From: Nitrosopumilus sp.
GTDB taxonomy: Archaea > Thermoproteota > Nitrososphaeria > Nitrososphaerales > Nitrosopumilaceae
Length of the DNA: 64,000 nt
Direction of reading: 5' to 3'
Assembly (NCBI RefSeq): GCF_025698945.1
Contig: NZ_JAILWM010000001.1
Coordinates: forward strand, 558,001-622,000
Shown here: in pieces, positions 2,890 through 57,844 of the stretch
How positions within the stretch are numbered: the first letter of the stretch is position 1
Layout of the letters: every line of letters starts with the position of its first letter
Notes under the pieces: model-generated
Told to the model about the DNA's origin: nothing
Databases searched by the model: none
Seen by the model: only the letters and a program-made list of their open reading frames with translations
Program-made: the position numbers and the translations under genes

Positions 2890-3465
2890 CTATGCTACTT
2901 GAACCAGTAAGGTGGTTCCTTTTTGAGAAAAATCCACCTGCACTTTGGAAAATGTTGGCCTATACATTGGAACCTTCCTACCTTCAACAATTTTTTCTCC
3001 ATCCTGTAAAAGTAATCCAGATTTAATCATCGAATTGATTTTTCTATATGCAGATGTCTGAGGCAAAGTACTATTTTGAATTGCATCAACACAAAGTAAA
3101 GGGTGAGTCCATAATTGCAATAGTTGGCGCAATTCACTATCCCCATAACCAGATAGTATTTTCTTTACAAGCAATTCATCTTGAATTTTTAATGAATCAC
3201 CACTTTTAACAGATTTTATTTCATTAAATGGTGTTGCTTCAGAAATTACTTTAGATCTAATTTCTTCTAACAATTTATCAGAAGCAGGACCAAATTGTCT
3301 TTTTAGAACCTCGTGGAATTGATCAAAATCCATAATAGCATATTTCATACTTGTCTTCCATATTTTCTCCAAATCAGACTCTAACTTTGCATATACTTTT
3401 TTACCCAAAATTGATGTTAGAACATCAACACTAGCCTGATACACTAACTGATTATAGATTTCCAC
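2890..3465 (-). CDS. Winged-helix regulator, paralogue of the gene at 5183
   Basis: The N-terminal 110 residues are a helical domain of no recognised family. The C-terminal part is a winged helix with a recognition helix reading 'LPQTSAYRKINSMIKSGLL', followed by a beta wing. The protein at 5183 has the near-identical block 'IPQTSGYRKINSMIKEGIL' at the same place and the same overall length, so the two are paralogues on opposite strands of one regulator cluster. The helical part may be a sensor or dimer domain; no ligand motif is visible. A DNA-binding role is inferred from the winged helix alone. Confidence 0.7.
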   Translation of the reverse strand: MEIYNQLVYQASVDVLTSILGKKVYAKLESDLEKIWKTSMKYAIMDFDQFHEVLKRQFGPASDKLLEEIRSKVISEATPFNEIKSVKSGDSLKIQDELLVKKILSGYGDSELRQLLQLWTHPLLCVDAIQNSTLPQTSAYRKINSMIKSGLLLQDGEKIVEGRKVPMYRPTFSKVQVDFSQKGTTLLVQVA

Positions 3466-43595: not shown

Positions 43596-44498
43596 TCACT
43601 CCAAGTCTAATTGAATACTGAGTTTTCCAAAATCCTCATTGATTCTAAACTCGTAACTTTTTGATGGGTCATACTTGAATTCTGTTCCACCATATCCAAT
43701 GTTTGGTCCAAACAAAATATTGAAGACTCTGGCATCACCAGGATTCAAAACAATTTGGCCACTCGTGAAATCCATTCCAGAGTATTTGAATGACTTTGAA
43801 CCATCCCAAACATCATAAGCACATATGGATGGACTGGTACAATTAAGAGATCTTATTTGGGAGTCATTATTTTCTGCCAACATACGTATTGTCAAGATTG
43901 CTTGTCCTGAAGGACTAATTTCAAAGTCATTACCTTGAGAACCCATTCCGACCCAATAGTAGGTGATTGGTCCAACCACAAATGCTTGGGCATCTCTTTT
44001 GTATTCGTATAATTCAATGGCTTTTTTGATTGGTTTTTCACAATCAAGTCTTTTGTATGCTTTAACAATTTCAGAGCATTTTTCAAGTTCTGCTTTAAGT
44101 GAAGCTAATTCAGAATCAACTGCATTAGATGTTGTTTCCATAGTTTTTTCTGATTCAACACTTGATGAGACCGTAATTAATCCAGTTTTAATCAAATGTG
44201 TAATTGCATTTACAAATTCTCCATCAGAAGTAATCCCATCTGCCCACCAGCCTGCGTTATTTTTAACCCAATCTGGTACTCCCTCAGATGACTGAATGGG
44301 TATTGCTGTTGGAGGAACAGTGATAATGCCATCCTTTATTAGAAATTCAATTCCAGTGAGGAATTCAGATTCAGAAATTGTTCCATCTGCCCACCAGCCT
44401 GCGTTATTTTTAACCCAACCAGGTACTTCGGCATATGCAAAAGACACAGATGAGGCAATCAGGATAGCTGCGATGATAGAGGTTATTGCTGCTTTCAT
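43596..44498 (-). CDS. Secreted protein with two WVKNNAGWW repeats
   Basis: The protein has 300 aa. Signal peptide 'MKAAITSIIAAILIASSVSF', then two repeats of about 45 residues, 'VPGWVKNNAGWWADGTISES' and 'VPDWVKNNAGWWADGITSDG', each followed by a helix '[IV]-x-x-L-I-K-[DT]-G-[IL]-I-T-V'. A Cys-bearing helix and a C-terminal beta domain of about 130 residues follow. The repeats recur in proteins at 55399 and 63471. They may anchor to the S-layer or a glycan; unproven. Its promoter region carries GCACTA/CCACTA sites. Confidence 0.75.
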   Translation of the reverse strand: MKAAITSIIAAILIASSVSFAYAEVPGWVKNNAGWWADGTISESEFLTGIEFLIKDGIITVPPTAIPIQSSEGVPDWVKNNAGWWADGITSDGEFVNAITHLIKTGLITVSSSVESEKTMETTSNAVDSELASLKAELEKCSEIVKAYKRLDCEKPIKKAIELYEYKRDAQAFVVGPITYYWVGMGSQGNDFEISPSGQAILTIRMLAENNDSQIRSLNCTSPSICAYDVWDGSKSFKYSGMDFTSGQIVLNPGDARVFNILFGPNIGYGGTEFKYDPSKSYEFRINEDFGKLSIQLDLE

Positions 44499-44528: not shown

Positions 44529-44529
44529 C

Positions 44530-44589
44530 TAGTGCTAATTTTAAATCTAGTGGTAATACAAAAATCAAAAACAATTTAGAATGGCACTA
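44530..44589. promoter_or_regulatory. GCACTA-type sites in the divergent ybgA-like promoter
   Basis: TAGTGC at 44530-44535 and GCACTA at 44584-44589 face each other, with a third, TAGTGG, at 44548-44553. The GCACTA at 44584 ends exactly 20 nt before the TATA-like box of the DUF1722 gene. Flanking bases (AATTAGCACTAG in one half, TGGCACTAG in the other) repeat those at 48999-49036 and 50046-50096. Probably the binding site of an activator or repressor. Confidence 0.55.
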
Positions 44590-44609
44590 GGAAATACAGC
44601 AGTCTTTCC

Positions 44610-44617: not shown

Positions 44618-44638
44618 AAATTGAAAAGACATAGTCAA

Positions 44639-45151
44639 GTGAGCAAAAATCTAGAAGCCAATAATAAAATCAAAGTATCAGAGGAAGAGATTAGAGAATT
44701 TGTATTGGAGAGATTTGAAAATATCAAGATCTCAGAAAAAATGAAAGATCTTGTAGAATTTCATACAGCAAACAAGTTCATGTTAATGGCTCATGATCAA
44801 ACCAAATTAAAAATATTAGGAAATATTGTTTCAAACAGCAATAAATCAGAATTAAAAGAAATCATTGATGAGTATGAAAAACATCTCAAAGAGGCATTTA
44901 TCAGTAAACCCACAACAAAATCACATAGTAATGTAATAATGCATATTTTTGGATTTTTTTCTGCAAACCTCAATAAATTTGAAAAAAGAGAGTTTCTAAA
45001 TTTATTACAGCAATTCAGAGAGGAGAAAATTACTATTGGCAATATTTTAGCTGAAATTAATCCAATTATTTATCAATTCAATAAAACATACCTTGCAGGG
45101 CAAACATATTTTTTACTATACACAGATAAAGATTCAGGAAACTTGTTTTAG
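44639..45151 (+). CDS. DUF1722 (YbgA C-terminal-type) protein
   Basis: The protein has 170 aa. 'MLMAHDQTKLKILGNIVSN', 'SHSNVIMHIFGFFSANLNKF' and 'INPIIYQFNKTYLAGQTYFL' are the DUF1722 signature, found in E. coli YbgA next to photolyase and in light-inducible operons of other bacteria. The DUF523 half is absent. Its role is unknown; context elsewhere points to UV/light response. The start is GTG at 44639, chosen from the TATA box; TTG at 44621 adds six residues. The promoter carries the shared GCACTA site. Confidence 0.78.
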   Translation: MSKNLEANNKIKVSEEEIREFVLERFENIKISEKMKDLVEFHTANKFMLMAHDQTKLKILGNIVSNSNKSELKEIIDEYEKHLKEAFISKPTTKSHSNVIMHIFGFFSANLNKFEKREFLNLLQQFREEKITIGNILAEINPIIYQFNKTYLAGQTYFLLYTDKDSGNLF

Positions 45152-46437: not shown

Positions 46438-47364
46438 ATGACAATAAAGAGAATTGTCTCTTTTTTGCCCAGCGCTACTGAATTACTATATGAATTCGGA
46501 GTTGAGGAGAATCTTTTTGGAGTAACACATGAATGCAAATATCCTCATGGTGCAAAATCAAAGCCAATTGTAATTAACTCTGTAATAAATTCTGAAAAAT
46601 TATCAAGTAATGAGATCGATAAAATAACTTGTGAACTACTAAATTCAGGGAAGAATATTTTTGTGTTAAATAGAGAGAATCTAAAAAAAGCTGATCCAGA
46701 TCTGATAATAACACAAGAAACTTGTGAAGCCTGTGCAGCTTATACCAATCAAGTTCAAGAATCAATATCTATTCTTAATCGAAAACCAAAATTGCACTCA
46801 ATGGATCCCCACAATATTCAAGAAATACTAAATTCTGTGATGGAGCTGGGAGAAATTCTCAAGAAACAAACACGGGCAAAAGAAATAGTAAATTCTCTTG
46901 AGAAAAGAATACAAAATGTAAAAAAAGAAAACATCACAACACGTCCAAAAGTTTTAGCAATAGAATGGATTGATCCATTTTTTACTGCAGGTCATTGGAT
47001 TTCAGAAATGATCCATATTGCCGGAGGACTAAATCTAATTAGTAAAACAGGAGAACATTCAAGACGATTAAATTTTCAAGTGATTAAAGATTCAGATCCA
47101 GACATCATAGTTTTGATGCCATGTGGTTTTGATGTTAAGCGGACAGTTTTAGAATATAAAAATTCTTTAAAAAATGACAAGGAATGGAATTCACTAAAAG
47201 CAGTAAAGAAAAACCAAGTTTATGCAGTAGATGCAAATTCATTTTTTAGCAAGCCCAGTATCAGAACAATTGAAGGGCTAGAAATATTGGCAAAAATCAT
47301 TCACCCTTCAAAATTTGAAAATCTCAGTATTTCTAAAGACTCATTTTCACAGATTTCTAGGTAG
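46438..47364 (+). CDS. BtuF-like cobalamin/corrinoid-binding protein
   Basis: The 308-aa protein has the two-lobed periplasmic-binding fold of the BtuF/FecB type: 'RIVSFLPSATELLYEFGVEE', 'DLIITQETCEACA', the joining long helix, 'WIDPFFTAGHWISEMIHIAG' and 'DPDIIVLMPCGFDVKRT'. No signal peptide or lipobox is seen, so it may be a cytoplasmic binding protein as reported for some archaeal homologues. It lies two genes from a B12-sensing protein, which suggests a B12 link. Confidence 0.8.
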   Translation: MTIKRIVSFLPSATELLYEFGVEENLFGVTHECKYPHGAKSKPIVINSVINSEKLSSNEIDKITCELLNSGKNIFVLNRENLKKADPDLIITQETCEACAAYTNQVQESISILNRKPKLHSMDPHNIQEILNSVMELGEILKKQTRAKEIVNSLEKRIQNVKKENITTRPKVLAIEWIDPFFTAGHWISEMIHIAGGLNLISKTGEHSRRLNFQVIKDSDPDIIVLMPCGFDVKRTVLEYKNSLKNDKEWNSLKAVKKNQVYAVDANSFFSKPSIRTIEGLEILAKIIHPSKFENLSISKDSFSQISR

Positions 47365-47537: not shown

Positions 47538-48935
47538 TTAGATAGGTTTTCCTTTAGACTGATAATCAAAAACCTTGTGAAATAGATTATGAGATGAAAT
47601 AACAGTAATTGCTACCACAAATAACCCTATAAAATTTCTAAGAATCATCAAATCATTGGGTTTGGAAGCAATTAACGAAGTCTGAAAAACAACAAAAAAG
47701 TTATCCATCAACCAAAATGCCAAAGTTATCCAAGACAATACACCTGCAATTAGATATCCCAATCTAGTTTTATTACGAACAAAAATAATTGCTGCAATTA
47801 TTGCGCTGTACCAAAAAAATGAACCAATTAACCACAAAGGATGAAAAACTTCGGGTCTATCATCTAACCAATAGTAAGATGTTCCAATTACTCCCATCGC
47901 AATAAGAAAAATCTGAATTATCTTTTGATTAATTTTAAAGCCGGTCTTTTCTTCTTTAAGTTCTGATTTTGGAGGAGACGATTTCATCTCGTTTGTTGCA
48001 ATATCAATTGCTTCACGTACAGATTTTAATTGCATCGGAATTATCTTTGTTATCGAGTCATTAGTTACAACAGTATCATGAACTAAACTATCAATTAGAG
48101 GTCTTGCTAAAGATGCTTTTACAGGAGTAATAAGATCAACCCAATATGATGACAGACGAGTTGTTAAGAAAGGAATCTGTATTACAAATAAATTCTTGTT
48201 CAGATACGCAGAGTATGTTCTCATTAATTCCTCATATGTCATTTTATCAGGTCCGCCTATTTCAAAAATTTTTCCTATAGTTTCTGGTTTATCAAGACAC
48301 TGAGCCAAATAATTTATCACGTCATCAACAGCTATTGGTTGAGCCAAGGATTTCACCCAAGAGGGGCAAACCATTATTCTTAATCTTTCAACAAGATACC
48401 TTAGCATTGCATAAGAGCCACCTTGTGCTCCAATAATTAATGATGCACGAAATTCAGTTACTGGGATATTTCCGGATGCAAGAATTTCACCGACTTCTTT
48501 TCTACTTTTCATGTGAGGAGATAGTGCGAGGCTATCATTGACAAGCCCCCCAAGGTAAATAATTCTTTTAACACCGGCATCAGTTGATGCCTTTAGAAAA
48601 TTTTGAGCTTGAATTTTTTCTCGTGATGCAAACTCTTTCCATTCTGATTTATGGCCCTCCATAGAATGCAGTAAATAATATGCAACCTCTACGCCCTTTA
48701 AAGCAATTGTGAGTTGCTCAAGATTAAAAACATCTGCCTGAACATATTTTACATTTTTAGCATCAGAGATTTTTTTCCTACTTAATCCCTTTACAGTATA
48801 TCCTAATGAAGATAATCTAGATATCAATCTTGAACCAATAAAGCCAGTAGCACCACTCACAAGAATAGAGTAAGGAGAAGATTGAGATTTCAATTGGCTT
48901 TCTAAGGACTGTTCCACTTTTATCTCAAGCTCCAC
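47538..48935 (-). CDS. NAD(P)-binding SDR protein fused to a membrane domain
   Basis: The protein has 465 aa. Residues 20-300 form an atypical SDR/NmrA-like Rossmann fold ('ILVSGATGFIGSRLISRLSS', 'YYLLHSMEGHKSEW'), close to YbjT-type epimerase-like proteins. The last 120 residues are four membrane helices. The SDR part likely senses or reduces a quinone, lipid or carotenoid-like substrate at the membrane; unproven. It is divergent from the CarH-like gene and shares its operator. Confidence 0.78.
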   Translation of the reverse strand: MELEIKVEQSLESQLKSQSSPYSILVSGATGFIGSRLISRLSSLGYTVKGLSRKKISDAKNVKYVQADVFNLEQLTIALKGVEVAYYLLHSMEGHKSEWKEFASREKIQAQNFLKASTDAGVKRIIYLGGLVNDSLALSPHMKSRKEVGEILASGNIPVTEFRASLIIGAQGGSYAMLRYLVERLRIMVCPSWVKSLAQPIAVDDVINYLAQCLDKPETIGKIFEIGGPDKMTYEELMRTYSAYLNKNLFVIQIPFLTTRLSSYWVDLITPVKASLARPLIDSLVHDTVVTNDSITKIIPMQLKSVREAIDIATNEMKSSPPKSELKEEKTGFKINQKIIQIFLIAMGVIGTSYYWLDDRPEVFHPLWLIGSFFWYSAIIAAIIFVRNKTRLGYLIAGVLSWITLAFWLMDNFFVVFQTSLIASKPNDLMILRNFIGLFVVAITVISSHNLFHKVFDYQSKGKPI

Positions 48936-48969: not shown

Positions 48970-48977
48970 TTATTTAA
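48970..48977 (-). promoter_or_regulatory. TATA-like box of the SDR gene
   Basis: TTAAATAA on the minus strand lies 21 nt downstream of the GCACTA half-site (49004-48999). The start codon is 35 nt further, so a short leader of about a dozen bases is expected. Confidence 0.4.
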
Positions 48978-48998
48978 GCTAGGGCCAAATAGGTTTTC

Positions 48999-49036
48999 TA
49001 GTGCCAAATTTTTAAAACATTCTCAAATTAGCACTA
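48999..49036. promoter_or_regulatory. Inverted GCACTA operator between SDR and CarH-like genes
   Basis: TAGTGCCAAATTT and AAATTAGCACTA face each other with a 13-nt gap. Each half points to one of the two divergent genes; distance from half-site to TATA-like box is 20 nt on the plus strand and 21 nt on the minus strand. The same halves occur at 44530-44589 and 50046-50096. This is the position of an activator or repressor site upstream of BRE/TATA. Confidence 0.6.
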
Positions 49037-49056
49037 TAAAGCATAGTTAGCATTAG

Positions 49057-49064
49057 TTATATAT
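49057..49064 (+). promoter_or_regulatory. TATA-like box of the CarH-like gene
   Basis: TTATATAT lies 21-28 nt before the ATG at 49085 and 20 nt after the GCACTA half-site. Confidence 0.5.
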
Positions 49065-49084: not shown

Positions 49085-49927
49085 ATGGTCTATATCAGAG
49101 CCAAAAAAGTCAAGTCTGATCAATATCTATACTTAGTCAAAAGCGTATGGGATTCAAAAAAAAGCACATCAAAACAAGAGATTTTAAAATATCTAGGAAA
49201 GGCTTCCGAAGTTGTAAAAGATGACATTCCTGAAGATTATCGTGATGATCCAAGAATATTATCGATTTTAGCTTCATACAATCCAAAAGATATTAAAAAA
49301 AGAGAAGATGCTACAAAAAAATCAAAACAACAACTGTACAAAAGATTAACTGAAGGAAATATTGAAGAGACAGTAAAAATTTATGATGAATACACTAAAC
49401 TATTCAGTCCTTCAGATTTTTTTGACAGAATTTTAAAACCAGTAATGTACAAGGTTGGAGAAGATTGGGCTTCTAAAAAAATAAGCATAGCAACTGAGCA
49501 TGTTGCAAGCAATATGGCACAAACCTTAGTAAAAATAATCATGGATCAAGTAACAAGTAAGAATACAAAAAAGAAAGTGTTAATTTGTGTCCCATTAGGG
49601 GAAGAACATCATTTAGGATGTGATGTCCTAGAGACATATCTTTCCATCAAAGGTTGTAAAGTGTTCAACATTGGAACTTCAATTCCATCTGAATCAATTC
49701 TTAGTTTTATAGAATATAAAAAACCTGATGTGATTTTGATTTCAATTACACTAGAAGACAATATTGGAGCAGGACAAAGACTTGTAAAAAAGATAAAAGA
49801 GCAATTCAATATTCCGATATTAGTTGGAGGGTATGTTTTTCATGGAGAAGTAACTCCAAAGTTTGATGTAAAAATAGTTCCGGATTCAGGGCTTGAAGAG
49901 ATTTACAAAATCATAAGAAAAACCTGA
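49085..49927 (+). CDS. CarH/LitR-type B12-binding (photo)sensor with unusual N-terminus
   Basis: The protein has 280 aa. Residues 80-155 are a four-helix B12-binding-2 domain with Trp128-x9-Glu138-His139, the W-x9-EH signature of CarH/LitR photoreceptors. Residues 163-275 are a cobalamin-binding Rossmann domain with E173-x-H175-x2-G178, 41 residues to S220-x-T222, then 25 to G248-G249, matching the full motif. Bacterial CarH has a MerR DNA-binding head; here residues 1-40 ('YIRAKKVKSDQYLYLVKSVW') instead look like the N-terminus of some IS-type transposases. It may bind DNA with it. Corrinoid methyltransferase activity is less likely given W-x9-EH. Confidence 0.82.
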   Translation: MVYIRAKKVKSDQYLYLVKSVWDSKKSTSKQEILKYLGKASEVVKDDIPEDYRDDPRILSILASYNPKDIKKREDATKKSKQQLYKRLTEGNIEETVKIYDEYTKLFSPSDFFDRILKPVMYKVGEDWASKKISIATEHVASNMAQTLVKIIMDQVTSKNTKKKVLICVPLGEEHHLGCDVLETYLSIKGCKVFNIGTSIPSESILSFIEYKKPDVILISITLEDNIGAGQRLVKKIKEQFNIPILVGGYVFHGEVTPKFDVKIVPDSGLEEIYKIIRKT

Positions 49928-49952: not shown

Positions 49953-50045
49953 AGGATTGCACTAAATCGAGCTGTGATCTGCTGAATCAGTACCTACACC
50001 ATAACTAATTATTGAATCACCTATACTGTGAAGAGAAATTTGTTC

Positions 50046-50096
50046 TAGTGCCAATCATATTTTCTAGAAATATGATTTAGGTATGAATTAGCACTA
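50046..50096. promoter_or_regulatory. GCACTA operator of the TFB gene
   Basis: TAGTGCCAAT at the left and AATTAGCACTA at the right flank a nested palindrome (50053-50077). The right half ends 20 nt before the TATA-like box. The halves repeat those of the SDR/CarH and ybgA promoters. Confidence 0.6.
50053..50077. promoter_or_regulatory. Nested 25-bp palindrome inside the TFB operator
   Basis: AATCATATTT and AAATATGATT form perfect 10-bp arms around TCTAG. It lies between the two GCACTA-type halves, so two different dimeric proteins may compete for this promoter. Confidence 0.45.
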
Positions 50097-50116
50097 GTTT
50101 AGAAATTTTTTCCGCC

Positions 50117-50144: not shown

Positions 50145-51062
50145 ATGATGACTGAATTATTGCATCAGAAAAACTGCAAAAAAAATACTTTGATTACAGA
50201 CTATCATACGGGAGAAATTGCATGTAGTAATTGTGGTGCAGTATCTTTTGAAAAAATTGTTGATGCAGGACAAGAATCATCAGGACTAACTGGAGAAGAA
50301 TATAACAAAACAAGCAAAGCGGGTGGAAAAATATCATTGAAAATGATCGATATGGGATTATCCACAATTATTGAAGCCCATGATAAAGACTCAAAAGGAA
50401 ATAGTTTGTCCATAGAAAATCGTAGGATATTTTATCGCCTACGAATGTGGGATAGAAATAGTCGCTCTGCAGTTTCTCTAAAATCATTTCAGAAGGCATT
50501 TACTCTACTTGATGGAATTTCATCAAAACTTGGATTGCCTGATGTTGTTATAGAACAAACAGCTCATTTATTTAGAAAGATTGCTGCAAAAAAAATCCTT
50601 GCAGGAAGGTCTACTGCAGGGATGTTATGTGCAGCAGTTTACATTACATGTAGAACTACAGATACACCAAGAACACTTCAAGATATTGCAGATGCAGGAA
50701 ATGTAAGAAAAAAAACATTGCAAAGAGTTTATAGATATTTGGTAAGAGATCTTGACATCTATCCTGAAATCTTTAATCCATCTGAATTTGTTTCAAGAAT
50801 TTCCAAAGCAGTTGGGATTTCAGAAAAATCAGAGAGATCTGCATATAGAATATTAGAAATTGCTGCAAAAAACAATATTTCAACAAGTAAGAATCCCATG
50901 GCAATGGCTGCAACTGCAATTCATTTAGCAGCTACAATTAACAATGAAAAAATATCTCAAACTAAGATCTCGAAAGTTTCAGGAATTAGTGCTGTAACTA
51001 TTAGAGAAAGAGTAAAAGAAATAAAAAAAATAGGAGGTGAAATCTATGGGCAGAACATGTAG
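50145..51062 (+). CDS. tfb: Transcription factor B with altered zinc ribbon
   Basis: The protein has 305 aa. Two cyclin-fold repeats are intact ('AGRSTAGMLCAAVYITCRTT', 'TPRTLQDIADAGNVRKKTLQ' and 'NPMAMAATAIHLAATINN', 'TKISKVSGISAVTIRERVKE'). The B-reader/linker is present. In the zinc ribbon, Cys27-x2-Cys30 is normal but the first pair has only Cys11; Gln8 stands where the first Cys should be, with His7 next to it. TFB recruits RNA polymerase to TATA/BRE; multiple TFBs give promoter choice. Its own promoter carries the shared operator. A zinc-type protein gene overlaps its end. Confidence 0.9.
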   Translation: MMTELLHQKNCKKNTLITDYHTGEIACSNCGAVSFEKIVDAGQESSGLTGEEYNKTSKAGGKISLKMIDMGLSTIIEAHDKDSKGNSLSIENRRIFYRLRMWDRNSRSAVSLKSFQKAFTLLDGISSKLGLPDVVIEQTAHLFRKIAAKKILAGRSTAGMLCAAVYITCRTTDTPRTLQDIADAGNVRKKTLQRVYRYLVRDLDIYPEIFNPSEFVSRISKAVGISEKSERSAYRILEIAAKNNISTSKNPMAMAATAIHLAATINNEKISQTKISKVSGISAVTIRERVKEIKKIGGEIYGQNM

Positions 51063-55398: not shown

Positions 55399-56817
55399 AT
55401 GAGAATAAAATATCTAATTGCCATAGTGATGTTAAGTTCTATAATCATTGAGGCAAATGCTCAAAGTGAAGAAAACCCAGAACAAATGTTCAATCAAGCA
55501 AATAATCTATTTGTTAAAGGTGAATACAAAACAGCTATTTCAATTTATGATCAAATTTTAAAAATTGCACCTAATAATATTTCTACGTTAAAAATGAAGG
55601 GAATTGCTCTAAGCAATCTTGAAGAGCATGATAGATCCTTAAAACAATTTTTCAAAGTTCTCCAATACAAACCAAAAGATATTACTGCATTAACTGGAAT
55701 GGGTGTAGGATTTGGTAATTTAGGCGAATATCAAGAATCAATAAAATATTTTGAAATTGCATCAAAAGAAAAACCAGACAGCATAGTAATTAACAACTAT
55801 AAAGAAATTGTTCAAAAAGTAATTAACAAGTTTCCATATACGCCTACCAAGAAACCAATTGGGTTAGAGAGTACAAAAGTTATTTCAATTCCTGATTGGG
55901 TAAAAACAATTTCAAAATGGTGGTCTGATGATTCAATAAAGGATGATGAATTTATCTCAGCGCTACTATACCTCATTGAAAATAATATAGTTCAAGTTCC
56001 CACCACAGAAAATACAAGTAACAATGATGAAAAGATTCCGGATTGGGTAAAAAATAATGCTGGCTGGTGGGCAGATGGGACTATAGAGGATGCAGAATTT
56101 GTTTCAGGCATACAATACATGATAAAAAATGGATTCATTACAATTAGTTTTAAAGAATCTAAACAAAAATCACAAGAACAATTAGATAATGAGTTTTACT
56201 TGTTTGAAAGATATCTTAGAGATATTGTAAATAATATTTCTAAAGAGAAGAGATACATAGAATATCCCAATCCAAGCAAAGACGTAATTAAAAAATTTCT
56301 AAGAGATTATGTTAAATGGAATTTTGAAGAAGAGGTAAAGAAAGCATCAGAGAACTTTCCAAATCCAACATACGAAATTGTTGATGATATCTACATAATT
56401 TACTATAAAGTATACATCAATGAACAACCAACGGGACTTCCATTGGATCATGTAAGTACATTAGAGAATTCATTTGTATTTTGGGAGAAACAGGAATTAA
56501 ATTCAAACAACCAAAAAGCAAAGATAGTTTTCGAGATGACTGAGAAAAAACACGAAGCCAATGTGTGGGTTACATGGGTAGTTCGCAATATTGGAGAGGG
56601 TGTTTTAGGTCATGCTCATCTTGGAAAAGGAGTTGTAGAAGTTACACTTGGCGATTATAATTGTGATGGCAGTTTTCAATTATACGATGTCAAGAGTGTT
56701 GAGACAATTATGACTCATGAGTTAGGACATTCAATTGGTTTAACACATACAGATGAAAAAAACAACATCATGTATCCATCATACACACCATCTTATGCAT
56801 TTTGTTTACTAAGCTAG
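55399..56817 (+). CDS. Secreted TPR / WVKNNAGWW / metzincin protease
   Basis: The protein has 472 aa. Signal peptide 'MRIKYLIAIVMLSSIIIEA', then two to three TPR repeats (residues 25-140), two WVK-type repeats ('IPDWVKTISKWWSDDSIKDD', 'IPDWVKNNAGWWADGTIEDA') and a metalloprotease domain with H440-E-x2-H444-x2-G-x2-H450 and Met-turn M458 ('NIMYPS'), the matrixin/metzincin signature. It is therefore an exported zinc protease, attached by TPR and repeats. The WVK repeats occur in two more secreted proteins of the window. Confidence 0.85.
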   Translation: MRIKYLIAIVMLSSIIIEANAQSEENPEQMFNQANNLFVKGEYKTAISIYDQILKIAPNNISTLKMKGIALSNLEEHDRSLKQFFKVLQYKPKDITALTGMGVGFGNLGEYQESIKYFEIASKEKPDSIVINNYKEIVQKVINKFPYTPTKKPIGLESTKVISIPDWVKTISKWWSDDSIKDDEFISALLYLIENNIVQVPTTENTSNNDEKIPDWVKNNAGWWADGTIEDAEFVSGIQYMIKNGFITISFKESKQKSQEQLDNEFYLFERYLRDIVNNISKEKRYIEYPNPSKDVIKKFLRDYVKWNFEEEVKKASENFPNPTYEIVDDIYIIYYKVYINEQPTGLPLDHVSTLENSFVFWEKQELNSNNQKAKIVFEMTEKKHEANVWVTWVVRNIGEGVLGHAHLGKGVVEVTLGDYNCDGSFQLYDVKSVETIMTHELGHSIGLTHTDEKNNIMYPSYTPSYAFCLLS

Positions 56818-56851: not shown

Positions 56852-56932
56852 TATTAGCTCAACCTACACACCAATAACCCGTTGAAATTAGGTAAAACGG
56901 ATAAAAAGGAATTACAGGTATTTAGTATTATT

Positions 56933-57844
56933 ATGCTCAAAAATGCCATGGTTTCCGGACCAAAGTGTCCCGCATGTGGAGATAAAAAAATGGTCACAGA
57001 TCAAAACACAGGAGAATTGTTCTGTGGGAAATGTGGTTTTGTTGTTACAGATAAAATTACAGATACAGGTGCTGAATGGAGATCTTTTGCAAACGACGAT
57101 ACCAACAGAACAAGGGTTGGTGCAGGAACATCGCTTACAATGCACGATATGGGATTATCAACAGTGATTGGAGCAGTCAACAAGGACTCTACTGGAAAAC
57201 CATTATCGGCAAGTATGAAAAGTTCTATTGAAAGACTTAGAACGTGGGATAGTAGAACACAAGCACATTCATCTGCAGATAGAAATCTAAGACAGGCACT
57301 AAATGAGATGGACAAGCTAAAAGATAAACTTGCTTTAACAGATGCAGTTGTAGAAAAAGCAGCTTACATTTACAGAAAAGCAATGGAGAAAAAACTGGTA
57401 AGAGGTAGATCCATTCAAGGATTAGTGGCAGCATGTCTTTATGCGTCATGTCGAAATACAGAAACACCAAGAACATTAGATGATGTTGCAAAAGGAATTA
57501 ACATCAGAAGAAAAGACGTAGCAAGATGTTATAGATTAATTTTTAGAGAATTAGAATTAAAAATGCCAGTAGTAGATCCGGTTAGAGGTGTATCCAGAAT
57601 TGCAAGTATTGCAGAATTAAGTGAGAAGAGTAAGCGAAAAGCAATTGAAATTTTAGATCAGGCTAAGAAAATAGGCATGGTGGCAGGAAAAGATCCGATG
57701 GGAATTGCAGCTGCTGCATTATATCTAGCATGTATTAGTACAGGAGAAGTAAAATCCCAAAAAGAAATCTCAATTGCATCGGGAGTGACTGAAGTCACTA
57801 TTAGAAACAGATGTGCGGGACTAAGAAAAATGCTAAATGAATAA
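56933..57844 (+). CDS. tfb: Transcription factor B (canonical)
   Basis: The protein has 303 aa from the ATG at 56933; the frame runs to a TTG at 56882 and a second ATG is at 56948, so the start is uncertain. The zinc ribbon is complete ('PKCPACGDKK' and 'LFCGKCGFVV'), followed by the B-reader and two cyclin folds ('VRGRSIQGLVAACLYASCRN', 'DPMGIAAAALYLACISTGEV'). It recruits RNA polymerase at TATA/BRE promoters. It lies 2 nt from the small gene downstream, so they form an operon. Confidence 0.95.
   Translation: MLKNAMVSGPKCPACGDKKMVTDQNTGELFCGKCGFVVTDKITDTGAEWRSFANDDTNRTRVGAGTSLTMHDMGLSTVIGAVNKDSTGKPLSASMKSSIERLRTWDSRTQAHSSADRNLRQALNEMDKLKDKLALTDAVVEKAAYIYRKAMEKKLVRGRSIQGLVAACLYASCRNTETPRTLDDVAKGINIRRKDVARCYRLIFRELELKMPVVDPVRGVSRIASIAELSEKSKRKAIEILDQAKKIGMVAGKDPMGIAAAALYLACISTGEVKSQKEISIASGVTEVTIRNRCAGLRKMLNE

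Follow-up and report, generated by a model that had tools for sequence, protein, structure and literature searches.

A gene in a 64,000-nucleotide stretch of a Nitrosopumilus genome (the window) appears to encode a B12 regulator of ammonia-oxidising archaea that responds to light and binds DNA through a new kind of module, a reading to which we assign a probability of about 0.7. A more specific proposal is somewhat better than an even bet: that this is the first archaeal regulator to sense light through adenosylcobalamin (AdoCbl), and that it combines an undescribed beta-sheet DNA-binding domain with a photoprotection regulon that contains a photolyase and with a TFB of its own. No paper describing a B12 photoreceptor in ammonia-oxidising archaea was found in the literature searched. 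The preliminary description saw a CarH-type B12 photoreceptor domain in a regulator that is not of the MerR type and has a DNA module of its own. Domain and fold matches support this core idea, as do a conserved operator array that recurs upstream of SDR, TFB, photolyase and DUF1722 genes and the co-occurrence with photolyase. The coordinates of the features discussed here are collected in Table 1.

Both C-terminal domains score above the Pfam cut-offs (B12-binding_2, residues 82–152, E 2e-11; B12-binding, residues 164–253, E 8e-13). Two motifs had been proposed with exact spacing, W128-x9-E138-H139 and E173-x-H175-x2-G178-x41-S220-x-T222-x25-G248-G249, and both are exact in the translation of 49085–49927 and are not a product of chance. 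The G-x41-S-x-T-x25-GG element is generic to the B12 fold, while E-x-H and W-x9-EH are the CarH-type parts; in the MetH encoded by the window's genome, the ligand motif is D-x-H and the W/EH lid is missing. Of 36 aligned homologues, 35 retain W128, E138 and H139, the lone exception in the lid being a divergent paralogue, and all 36 retain E173, H175, G248 and G249. The residue after W128, equivalent to His132 of Thermus CarH (TtCarH), is alanine in the regulator and histidine in 0 of the 36. On sequence grounds, the domains and the predicted ligand-site residues can be regarded as established.

Searches against families and structures point in the same direction. The top NCBIfam match is CarH (residues 78–227), ahead of MetH and MtgC, with a score of 57.1 bits that lies far below the curated cut-off of 400 bits for this family (NF052513); the regulator also has weak matches to MtgC, MetH and MtbC. 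The closest PDB sequence matches are photocobilin (8j2x, 8j2w) and TtCarH. A full-length AlphaFold model built from a 36-row alignment has a mean pLDDT of 88, and the best 50 listed Foldseek matches to it are all TtCarH/LitR, CtMerR or photocobilin structures.

The regulator is present in 68 of the 151 family genomes sampled. Its close orthologues, on 37 contigs, come from Nitrosopumilus, Nitrosarchaeum and relatives, and more distant members, 36–53% identical to the window protein, are found in further Nitrosopumilaceae genera. Several Nitrosopumilus genomes carry a second, divergent copy near photolyase (L087, at G186:C1:795431-796264, and L117–L121). The L087 copy, the lid exception mentioned above, no longer has W128 or E138/H139, and no operator precedes it; copies of this type bring to mind the B12-independent CarA paralogue in Myxococcus.

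The N-terminal part of the protein is of a different kind. In alignments of homologues, residues 1–44 are near-invariant (MVYxRxKxVK...YLYLVxSxWD...TS.QE..KYLGK), and residues 1–45 are basic, with 11 K/R against 4 D/E. Modelled alone, residues 1–76 form an antiparallel sheet of three strands and a helical linker (pLDDT 84). This 76-residue model has no significant fold match in the PDB, and the N-terminus matches no family of note in Pfam or NCBIfam. A MerR-type winged helix likewise has no Pfam or NCBIfam match in the regulator, and the model has three strands in its place. A resemblance of the N-terminus to IS transposases had also been proposed, and here Pfam, NCBIfam and plasmid tblastn searches gave no match and the fold comparison none of significance. 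An IS-transposase origin is thus without sequence or fold support, the likeness by eye being neither proved nor excluded. The three-stranded sheet is a candidate DNA-binding module; because nothing related to the domain has a known function, we can only infer that it binds DNA.

Table 1. Features of the regulator gene and its putative regulon, in window coordinates.
Feature	Position	Strand	Basis or remark
B12-domain regulator gene ("CBD")	49085..49927	+	280 aa; orthologues 68-88% identity in 37 genome contigs
N-terminal domain, residues 1-44	49085..49216	+	alignments; model pLDDT 84; K+R 11 vs D+E 4
B12-binding_2 four-helix domain, residues 82-152, with W128, E138, H139	49328..49540	+	Pfam and conservation
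B12-binding Rossmann domain, residues 164-253, with E173-x-H175	49574..49843	+	Pfam and conservation
Putative distal operator TTAGCACTAT	49028..49037	+	19 bp upstream of proximal copy
Putative proximal operator TTAGCATTAG	49047..49056	+	touches regulator TATA box
Regulator TATA box TTATATAT	49057-49064		
Putative operator TTGGCACTAG	48998..49007	-	faces divergent SDR gene
Putative SDR-promoter proximal operator TTGGCCCTAG, one mismatch	48979..48988	-	touches SDR TATA (48970-48977)
NmrA/SDR oxidoreductase with C-terminal membrane part	47538..48935	-	divergent partner of regulator
Putative operator TTGGCACTAG	50045..50054	-	left half, inverted pair 43 bp apart
Putative operator TTAGCACTAG	50088..50097	+	right half of pair, precedes TFB gene
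TFB (TFIIB homologue), likely regulon member	50145..51062	+	operator pair upstream
300-aa apparently secreted protein, function unknown	43596..44498	-	promoter operators; conserved linkage
Putative operator TTAGCACTAG	44529..44538	-	proximal, serves gene 43596-44498
Putative operator TTACCACTAG	44547..44556	-	distal, 18 bp from proximal copy
Operator-like ATGGCACTAG	44581..44590	+	faces DUF1722 gene
Stand-alone DUF1722 (YbgA-like) gene	44621..45151	+	PF08349 118.6 bits; operator upstream in relatives

A 10-bp putative operator, TTRSCAYTA(G/T), recurs in the promoter regions of the regulator, the SDR gene divergent from it, the DUF1722 gene and the TFB gene. Seven of the ten TTRSCAYTAK matches in the window fall within three intergenic regions of this module, against 2.87 expected in the entire 64 kb, and of the 17 exact copies of TTRSCACTAG in the genome (1.75 Mb), five lie within 5.6 kb here (Poisson 4e-9). 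The operator layout of the SDR promoter is the mirror image of that in the regulator promoter, and the DNA at 48999–49036 named in the preliminary description is an inverted operator pair within this larger array. All close orthologues are preceded by copies of this operator or of sequences close to it. The operator core occurs in 55 of 59 regulator promoters, some of them possibly from the same species, and in most cases two copies stand in tandem, 19 bp apart, at the TATA box. Counts of the 10-mer per genome are raised in most genomes that bear the regulator, without separating all genomes that have it from those that do not. As far as sequence can establish them, the putative operator array and its conservation are secure, and the regulator protein itself probably reads it.

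The genome-wide scan for further regulon members was a pattern search. Facing operator copies precede the TFB gene at a spacing of 42–44 bp in 24 loci, and the DNA that separates them shows no conservation. Elsewhere in the genome, the gene for a 104-aa membrane protein has the same tandem-operator promoter, an arrangement shared by the orthologues in L026 and L167, and an exact operator (G000:C1:712905-712914; L054) lies about 70–80 bp upstream of uvrB. No photolyase was found in the window's own genome; N. adriaticus and N. piranensis do carry one (PMC6593220). A second TFB gene (56882–57844) lies about 6 kb from the first, among ten TFB-like matches in the genome, and the predicted proteins at 43596–44498 and 55399–56817 both contain repeats like VPxWVKNNAGWWADG.

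In relatives, the genes with operator arrays comprise the regulator, SDR, DUF1722, secreted-protein and TFB genes, together with a three-gene set that is not in the window. This set encodes a FAD-dependent protein like amine oxidases and phytoene desaturases, a small protein possibly of the SRPBCC kind (no Pfam match), and a 122-aa protein. Among Nitrosopumilaceae, an operator lies upstream of the photolyase unit, within about 260 bp, in 26 of 39 loci, which is far above the chance level (about 1.4% per region, estimated from base composition), even when relatedness is allowed for. The operator-bearing photolyase genes stand alone or in the orders DUF1722-photolyase, 184-aa gene-photolyase and regulator-photolyase. 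Ahead of DUF1722, the operator is found in all 27 loci with a placed start. Regulator-photolyase and DUF1722-photolyase pairs in a single orientation are seen in L160 (7249–9500), L177, L181, L184 and L188; the DUF1722-photolyase pair resembles ybgA-phr of Escherichia coli. In L092, 184-aa and 183-aa proteins (910–1464 and 2900–3451) lie beside photolyase with operators. A DICT identity for the gene before photolyase reached 16.4 bits, below the cut-off and in one copy only, and is treated only as a lead.

The regulator also co-occurs with these genes. It is present in 42 of 45 genomes that bear DUF1722 (Fisher 7e-16) and in 30 of 32 that bear photolyase (Fisher 1e-10; for one of the 32, G045, a fragment only), p-values that overstate independence because the genomes are related. 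A full, close SDR orthologue occurs in only 2 of the 24 family genomes where the regulator was not found. Linkage within the module is kept across genera. Read from the genome sequences, the linkage and co-occurrence of the regulator with photolyase and DUF1722 may be taken as established. Photolyase occurs without the regulator in two genomes, G356 (87% complete, in 360 contigs) and G310. In the latter (G310:C89; L200, L205), the regulator has been lost and a PPOX-like gene lies between SDR and TFB instead; SDR retains its operators and the TFB gene is kept, and the photolyase has no operator. The regulator is also absent from the G300 draft, yet one operator precedes DUF1722 there. The operators kept in G310 and G300, and the lack of a photolyase in the window's own genome, speak against the main reading.

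The mechanism we propose begins with the C-terminal half, which would bind adenosylcobalamin in the base-off/His-on form through H175, with W128 and E138/H139 capping the adenosyl group as in CarH. The basic N-terminal sheet would contact the 10-bp operator. In the dark, multimers would occupy the tandem operators with their 19-bp spacing, of which the inner copy touches the TATA box, and would exclude TBP and TFB from the promoters of the regulator itself and of the SDR, DUF1722, TFB and secreted-protein genes. In relatives, photolyase and the operon of the FAD-dependent phytoene-desaturase-like protein would be repressed likewise. Light would break the Co–C bond and loosen the assembly, and the photoprotection genes would be expressed. 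Dark repression, rather than activation by light, is the direction that we presume, and B12 binding and the photochemical response are likewise expected of the protein by inference. AdoCbl should be available, because the window, by our reading of its open reading frames, encodes methylmalonyl-CoA mutase subunits and a MeaB-like protein.

Several known systems share parts of this arrangement. With CarH/LitR, repressors of the MerR type that sense light through AdoCbl, the regulator has in common both B12 domains, the W-x9-EH lid, the E-x-H ligand motif and the fold, as well as putative promoter-overlapping operators at its own gene and at photoprotection genes, and the kinds of target: photolyase, SDR, FAD oxidoreductase and DUF1722. 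Bacterial LitR/CarH regulons contain phrB, SDR, FAD oxidoreductase and RudS (TudS-DUF1722) genes (PMC9758184, PMC11417400). The archaeal gene set is of the same kind, and its function is read by analogy. The regulator differs from CarH/LitR in having an unrelated three-stranded N-terminal domain in place of the MerR head, another operator, archaeal TATA-linked promoters and no His132. Lacking the MerR domain, it falls outside the CarH/LitR family, but it is predicted to function in a CarH-like way.

His132 is the light-state upper ligand in TtCarH, and the step from light to output may differ from that of TtCarH because this residue is absent. The H132A variant of TtCarH binds AdoCbl, loses the adenosyl group in light and remains mostly tetrameric (PMC10442372), although an earlier report on this variant differs (cited in PMC10442372). 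CtMerR, SasPcob and AbDPcob are also without His132 (PMC11796333). The photocobilins (SasPcob, AbPcob) provide the best PDB sequence match, with a close fold and the same lid and ligand motifs; however, the regulator ends after the B12 domain, with no globin or bilin domain, and has a regulator-like N-terminus instead. AerR and LAerR likewise tie a B12 domain to light-related gene control. AerR, however, acts via CrtJ, whereas in the regulator the N-terminal domain is conserved and nothing like CrtJ was seen as a partner or neighbour.

This last comparison underlies one of the two main alternatives, in which the protein, like AerR in its relation to CrtJ, is a photoreceptor co-regulator that makes no DNA contact of its own, and the operator is read by another factor such as the adjacent TFB. 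The lack of a known DNA-binding fold in the N-terminus favours it, as does G310, where operators and the TFB gene persist and the B12 gene is lost. On the other hand, the N-terminus is basic and nearly invariant, and no further regulator gene was seen among the conserved neighbours of the B12 gene. The adjacent TFB in particular is an unlikely operator reader, because no orthologue of it turned up in several genera in which the B12 gene and operators are retained: the best matches in G045, G053, G003, G215 and G284 have about 40% identity, and at least four of these five genomes keep operators. We consider a co-regulator of this kind unlikely. The other main alternative, similarly doubtful, is an AdoCbl-binding protein that acts on the same operators in response to AdoCbl supply, redox state or oxygen, and not to light. 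The domain would be expected to bind AdoCbl for any purpose, the light-state ligand His132 is missing, and a periplasmic-binding (BtuF-like) gene lies nearby (46438–47364). Against this, the promoter of that gene has no operator match, and the operator-linked genes are photolyase, DUF1722, SDR and the phytoene-desaturase-like oxidoreductase, with no B12 uptake, B12 synthesis or B12-dependent enzyme genes among them.

An ordinary corrinoid carrier of a methyltransferase system is very improbable. Such proteins, like MetH, share the B12 fold, and the weak NCBIfam matches noted above include them, but they have D-x-H, no Trp/EH lid and a methyltransferase context. All homologues of the regulator have E-x-H instead, W-x9-EH is conserved, CarH is the best NCBIfam match, photoreceptors fill the top fold matches, and a linked methyltransferase gene is absent in the window and in relatives. 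We reject this reading on motif and gene context. The preliminary description had itself named as a refutation that close relatives should all be corrinoid methyltransferase proteins beside methyltransferase genes; the relatives do not follow that pattern.

A light-responsive B12 regulator in these archaea, if the reading is true, would pair the CarH light-sensing module with a different DNA-binding domain and with archaeal promoters, and would add a previously undescribed DNA-binding fold for study. Marine nitrification is shaped by the inhibition of ammonia-oxidising archaea by light. With a B12-based sensor whose operator and regulon are defined, this inhibition could be tested in culture.
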